Assembly (NCBI GenBank): GCA_007136405.1 | Contig: SLHA01000044.1 | Location: forward strand, 1-64,000 | DNA from: Candidatus Latescibacterota bacterium | GTDB taxonomy: Bacteria > Latescibacterota > UBA2968 > UBA8231 | Direction of reading: 5' to 3' | Length of the DNA stretch: 64,000 bases | Part shown: one piece after another, positions 33,809 to 35,024 of the stretch | How the letters are laid out: the number at the start of each line of letters is the position of its first letter | Position numbering within the stretch: position 1 is the stretch's first letter | The notes under the pieces: model-generated | The model's database searches: none | Told to the model about the DNA's origin: nothing | Seen by the model: only the letters and a program-made list of their open reading frames with translations | Made by a program: the position numbers and the translations under genes

Positions 33809-33977
33809 ACCCCCTCGCTTCCCCTGAGACGAGTCCAATAGGCAATGACCGTTTTTCAGACCCTAACCGTCCCGGTGACGCCGGCTCCCGGCATGCAGCT
33901 GTTGCGCGTCACACTACCGGCTCCGGTGCGGCCTGGTGCCCGCAGAGCCGCCCGCCCTGAAGAACCGCATTACGGAT

Positions 33978-34160
33978 TCAGACTTCGGGCTCGACGTAAC
34001 TTCGCCCCCGGTAGAAGCCACAGCTGGGGCAGACCCGGTGAGGAGCGCTCGGTTGACCGCAGTGAGCGCAGGAATTCACCGTGGGTATGGCAGCCTTCCA
34101 ATGAGTCCGCCGCTTGTCACGGCGCGTGCGCGATATTCTCCTTTTAGGTACAGCGGCCAC
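33978..34160 (-). CDS. rpmF: 50S ribosomal protein L32
   Basis: 60 residues. VPKRRISRTRRDKRRTHWKA and two Cys pairs (CAHCG, CPSCG) forming a zinc ribbon identify the C+ form of L32. The start is GTG, 7 nt after GGAG. Neighbourhood yceD-rpmF-fab is conserved in many bacteria. Confidence 0.95.
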   Translation of the reverse strand: MAAVPKRRISRTRRDKRRTHWKAAIPTVNSCAHCGQPSAPHRVCPSCGFYRGRSYVEPEV

Positions 34161-34215: not shown

Positions 34216-34761
34216 CTACCTGAACTTGATATTCTTCAGCGCCTCCCAGCGCGGATCCTGCTCCCGGCCGACACACTGACAGTTGTCCCGATTGAGGTCC
34301 GTACCGCAATGCGAACACAGACCCCGGCAATCTTTGCGGCAGTAAACCCGCACGGGCAGTTCCAGCAATACACCGTCATGCACATGCTCGGCCAGGTTCA
34401 GCTCGCGCGTGCCGGGCCGCAGAATGACCAGTCCGCCATCCTCGGCCGCAGCCTCCAGCTCGTCAGGGGTGGCGTTTTTGAGCTGAAACAGGACCTGCAA
34501 CTCAGCCCTTACCGGAACCTCCACGGGAACCAGGCAGCGGCAGCACTCGCCGCGTGCGATGGTCCGTACGGTTCCCGTCAGGGTAAAAGTCTCCATGATA
34601 CGATGTAGTTGCAGGTGCACGTGAATGACGCCAGGGAAGGCGTAATAGGCATCCTGCAGGTCCAGACCCGCGGCCGTCACGTCCAGTACGTATTCCGACG
34701 CGCCTTCCTGGATCTCGTCCACCGGAAGCACCAGCGGATCCTGGCGATCGGTCCTTTTCAT
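34216..34761 (-). CDS. YceD/DUF177 family protein
   Basis: 181 residues. The C-terminal block CRKDCRGLCSHCGTDLNRD followed by DPRWEALKNIK is diagnostic of DUF177 (YceD), a protein linked in plants and bacteria to 23S rRNA accumulation and nearly always encoded before rpmF. The ATG lacks a good Shine-Dalgarno but overlaps the stop of the ndk remnant (ATGA), so it is probably translated by coupling. The track start is 26 codons upstream. Confidence 0.9.
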   Translation of the reverse strand: MKRTDRQDPLVLPVDEIQEGASEYVLDVTAAGLDLQDAYYAFPGVIHVHLQLHRIMETFTLTGTVRTIARGECCRCLVPVEVPVRAELQVLFQLKNATPDELEAAAEDGGLVILRPGTRELNLAEHVHDGVLLELPVRVYCRKDCRGLCSHCGTDLNRDNCQCVGREQDPRWEALKNIKFR

Positions 34762-34982
34762 GATGCTGCAGCCCCGAAAAAAAACGCAACTCCAGCCAGA
34801 GCGCTCCGCGGTGCGTCCAAGGCGCGCCGCGCCGTGCATTGCGGATCCGCGCCGAAGTCACTGCGGACGATGCCGGGTTCCGCCGTGGCGCTTGCAGCTT
34901 CCACCCGGGCAAGGCTCGGACCGATGTTGCTGCTGCCGACACAATCCGGCTTGATCATCATCAGTGTGCATCCCAGCTCCAT
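34758..34982 (-). pseudogene. Internally deleted nucleoside diphosphate kinase remnant
   Basis: A 74-codon ORF whose two halves both look like Ndk. The start, MELGCTLMMIKPDCVGSSNIG, resembles the first strand and helix (TLxMIKPDxV...NIG). From SATAEPGIVRSDFGAD to VAFFFG it resembles the C-terminus (AxPGTIRxDFG...HASDS...xFF). About 60 middle residues are missing, and the catalytic-histidine loop (NxxHxSDS) has become TARRALDAP, so it cannot be an active kinase. It is the first ORF after the fab promoter and overlaps yceD by ATGA, so it may persist as a coupling ORF. The homology is by eye. Confidence 0.6.
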
Positions 34983-35003: not shown

Positions 35004-35024
35004 CGGTTCCGGCTGCCGGAACCG
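35004..35024 (-). promoter_or_regulatory. Perfect 9-bp palindrome at the 5' end of the fab transcript
   Basis: CGGTTCCGG-cag-CCGGAACCG lies about 10 nt after the predicted start point. It could protect the 5' end of the mRNA or be an operator for a fatty-acid regulator; it does not look like the known FapR or FabR sites. Confidence 0.4.

Follow-up and report, generated by a model that had tools for sequence, protein, structure and literature searches.

The 74-codon open reading frame lying upstream of yceD in this Candidatus Latescibacterota genome is, with a probability of about 0.93, an ordinary unitary pseudogene of ndk, the gene for nucleoside diphosphate kinase (Ndk), which decayed at the ancestral ndk-yceD-rpmF locus. 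Together with its stop codon it occupies positions 34758..34982 on the minus strand of the window (the whole 64,000-nucleotide stretch of DNA that was analysed) and, read from 34982 down to 34758, it is MELGCTLMMIKPDCVGSSNIGPSLARVEAASATAEPGIVRSDFGADPQCTARRALDAPRSALAGVAFFFGAAAS. The frame comprises 74 codons when counted from ATG and 105 codons from an upstream GTG; a plus-strand reading of the region was ruled out by an in-frame stop. On the same strand it is followed by yceD (34216..34761; PF02620, E 1.2e-28) and by rpmF, encoding ribosomal protein L32 (33978..34160; PF01783, E 3e-25).

A profile search with the 74 amino acids matched the Pfam NDK family (PF00334) in two stretches, which correspond to the end pieces of the domain only, with E 9.4e-5 and a score of 22.7 bits that falls short of the curated cut-off of 27 bits. 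The NCBIfam Ndk models matched the remnant as well, the best E being 1.7e-6 for the C-terminal part; their best stretches placed residues 31-71 on profile positions 95-135, or residues 6-29 on positions 4-27. When aligned by MAFFT with the 24 intact Ndks of the family, the remnant showed one in-frame gap of about 64 codons (192 nt, alignment columns 30-93) and was gapless on either side of it. The Ndk N-terminus (codons 1-30, 34893..34982, minus strand) is thus joined to the C-terminus (codons 31-74 and the stop, 34758..34892, minus strand) without the middle of the protein, as the original prediction had proposed, and the deletion junction can be placed at 34890..34895 on the minus strand, its exact point being accurate to within a few codons. 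The prediction that the active-site HASDS loop had turned into RALDA was likewise borne out by the alignment, in which the catalytic His is replaced by Arg at codon 53 (34824-34826). Nearly all Ndks of the family have the motif FGTDVQCNAVHASDS, which in the remnant reads FGADPQCTARRALDA; the family signature QC of QCNAVHASDS is retained in its QCTARRALDA, and the conserved Asn has become Thr at codon 50. The IKPD and PG-x-x-R motifs are still present. The resemblance to Ndk therefore extends to both ends of the protein and to the family-specific residues preceding the active-site loop, whereas a whole-domain match above the cut-off, the catalytic His and the central fold, by which a working Ndk would be recognized, are all missing. 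Judged from its sequence, the product, if made, could not act as a nucleoside diphosphate kinase.

Comparison with relatives establishes where this ORF came from. Each of the family's 24 other genomes (24/24) has an intact ndk immediately upstream of its yceD, the two matches lying a few hundred bases apart on a shared contig and strand, and rpmF belongs to the locus in every one of them. Within the whole class, ndk was found in 46 of 47 genomes, the sole exception being the genome studied here. Since the same position is taken by an intact ndk in 24 relatives, the remnant is a decaying orthologous gene and not an unrelated ORF. It has diverged strongly: its identity to six relatives is 39-46%, and the best value to any is 49% (over 69 shared columns). 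For G001, a relative at a similar distance, the identity to its relatives is 67-78%, and for the YceD (33-43%) and RpmF (62-79%) of the remnant's own genome the divergence is normal. Eleven of 31 invariant columns are broken in the remnant, and 0-2 in every intact Ndk.

Loss of purifying selection, for which the original prediction had suggested a dN/dS test, was assessed by a custom two-ratio codon model, with one genome (G015) left out of the codon tests. The remnant branch gave an omega of 1.12, and the background an omega of 0.059; on the remnant branch omega=1 was not rejected (2dlnL 0.02) and the background value was (2dlnL 15.8). On the same branch omega=1 was rejected for both yceD (2dlnL 23.6) and rpmF (2dlnL 11.7), which are thus constrained in this lineage. 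Synonymous change on the branch and the branch lengths of the controls are near saturation, and these tests speak of constraint, not of dates. The GC content of the remnant is flat across codon positions (0.66/0.62/0.67) and close to that of the window (0.63); the corresponding values for the ndk of G001 are 0.59/0.46/0.77. The retained part of ndk evolves neutrally in this lineage. Retention of IKPD and PG-x-x-R might be taken to mean that the truncated Ndk has remained functional, as a small protein with a regulatory or partner role. We consider this extremely improbable, as the middle 64 codons are gone, the catalytic His and the conserved Asn are replaced, and an omega of about 1, the broken invariant columns and the lost coding GC pattern all speak against it.

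Another possibility is that the deletion is a misjoin and that the real ndk is intact, since the genome (4.3 Mb, 86.7% completeness) is fragmented into 165 contigs. Both flanks of the junction nevertheless show neutral point decay, with the catalytic His among the residues affected, and a misjoin would not cause it; an artefact alone is therefore unlikely, and we give it hardly any weight. The pseudogene reading involves the following course of events. The ancestor of the family carried ndk-yceD-rpmF, followed in this genome by fatty-acid genes. In this lineage ndk presumably became dispensable; about 192 nt went missing in frame from its middle, and substitutions, among them that of Arg for the phosphate-carrying His, have since accumulated at the neutral rate. 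We infer this order of the deletion and the point changes. The original stop and the junction with yceD are inherited. In its in-frame deletion, neutral substitutions and lost coding composition, the remnant is like other unitary bacterial pseudogenes, with no essential difference.

The frame of the remnant runs open to the original stop and overlaps yceD by ATGA. The original prediction had read both as if kept for coupling, and the observations themselves were correct. In neutral simulations of substitutions alone, started from the sequences of four relatives at 0.93-1.03 substitutions per codon, the frame was stop-free in 38-53% of runs at the inferred divergence. A single deletion has a one in three chance of being in frame. 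In relatives whose ndk is intact, its stop already abuts or overlaps the start of yceD, as ATGA in G001 and as TGATG in a number of g4 genomes. With an open frame arising this often by chance and the tight junction being ancestral, neither needs selection, and the part of the prediction that invoked maintenance for coupling was not upheld; selection for an open frame was set aside as unnecessary. It may still be asked whether the remnant is selectively kept as a short leader ORF, the translation of which supplies yceD with ribosomes by way of the overlap. Inspection by eye showed no obvious strong Shine-Dalgarno sequence ahead of yceD, which would be in keeping with such a role. The simulations and the ancestral junctions argue against it, as does the lack of residue constraint, though a leader would require none, and we regard this explanation as very improbable.

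Turning from the locus to the genome as a whole, no second ndk was found: apart from the remnant, nothing in the 165 contigs (86.7% complete) matched PF00334 at E<=0.001, in answer to the suggestion that an intact copy be sought. Loosening the threshold brought up the two pieces of the remnant and one further match, and nothing else. The further match, covering 30 positions on contig C48 with E 0.66, was attributed to chance, as its local translation has a stop and no Ndk context. Whole-genome loss of ndk is probable, although a further copy may have been missed in sequence absent from the assembly, as G001 has two. The second ndk of G001 lies away from yceD (L001:1501-1905 = G001:C52:4114-4518) and has a Pfam score above that of the copy at the locus.

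As possible substitutes, the genome has two pyruvate kinases and two loci for PPK2. Phosphorylation of nucleoside diphosphates would presumably be carried out by pyruvate kinase, adenylate or other monophosphate kinases, PPK2, or the product of an ndk copy missing from the assembly. Gain of PPK2 as compensation was rejected: despite the two loci found here, PPK2 occurs in 23 of 25 genomes of the family and is not specific to this one. Being so common in the family, PPK2 was probably in place before ndk was lost. A more far-reaching proposal, in which this bacterium, despite a genome of 4.3 Mb, lives without any Ndk, makes its (d)NTPs by means of pyruvate kinase, monophosphate kinases or PPK2, and uses the leftover ORF as a translational leader of yceD, seems to us very improbable when taken as a whole.

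A dead ndk remnant had been presented in the original prediction as something unfamiliar. Loss of ndk has already been described: the gene is missing from mycoplasmas and JCVI-syn3A (PMC6609329) and from Thermotoga maritima (PMC10248530), and glycolytic or monophosphate kinases were reported as substitutes in these bacteria (PMC6609329, PMC10248530). The genome studied here resembles them in having no detectable Ndk, and it has two pyruvate kinases; it differs in that the remnant is readable, the genome is a 4.3 Mb incomplete one, and all relatives keep ndk. A nucleotide enzyme that is nearly universal has here been caught being lost, with the remnant of its gene still legible, and this provides a small natural test of Ndk dispensability. 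The picture of the fatty-acid operon is left unchanged by it.

Neither a promoter nor a terminator accounting for retention of the remnant was detected above chance, and no Rfam family of structured RNA was found in the window. As to the neighbouring genes, within 33838-34160 fabH lies directly after rpmF with no plsX in between, and PlsX (PF02504) was not found in any of the family's 25 genomes, despite the presence of yceD and rpmF there. Between the ndk remnant and a divergent HD-domain gene, at 35004-35024, there is a perfect inverted repeat, CGGTTCCGGC-T-GCCGGAACCG, which occurs once in the whole genome when up to two mismatches (<=2) are allowed and could be a candidate operator.
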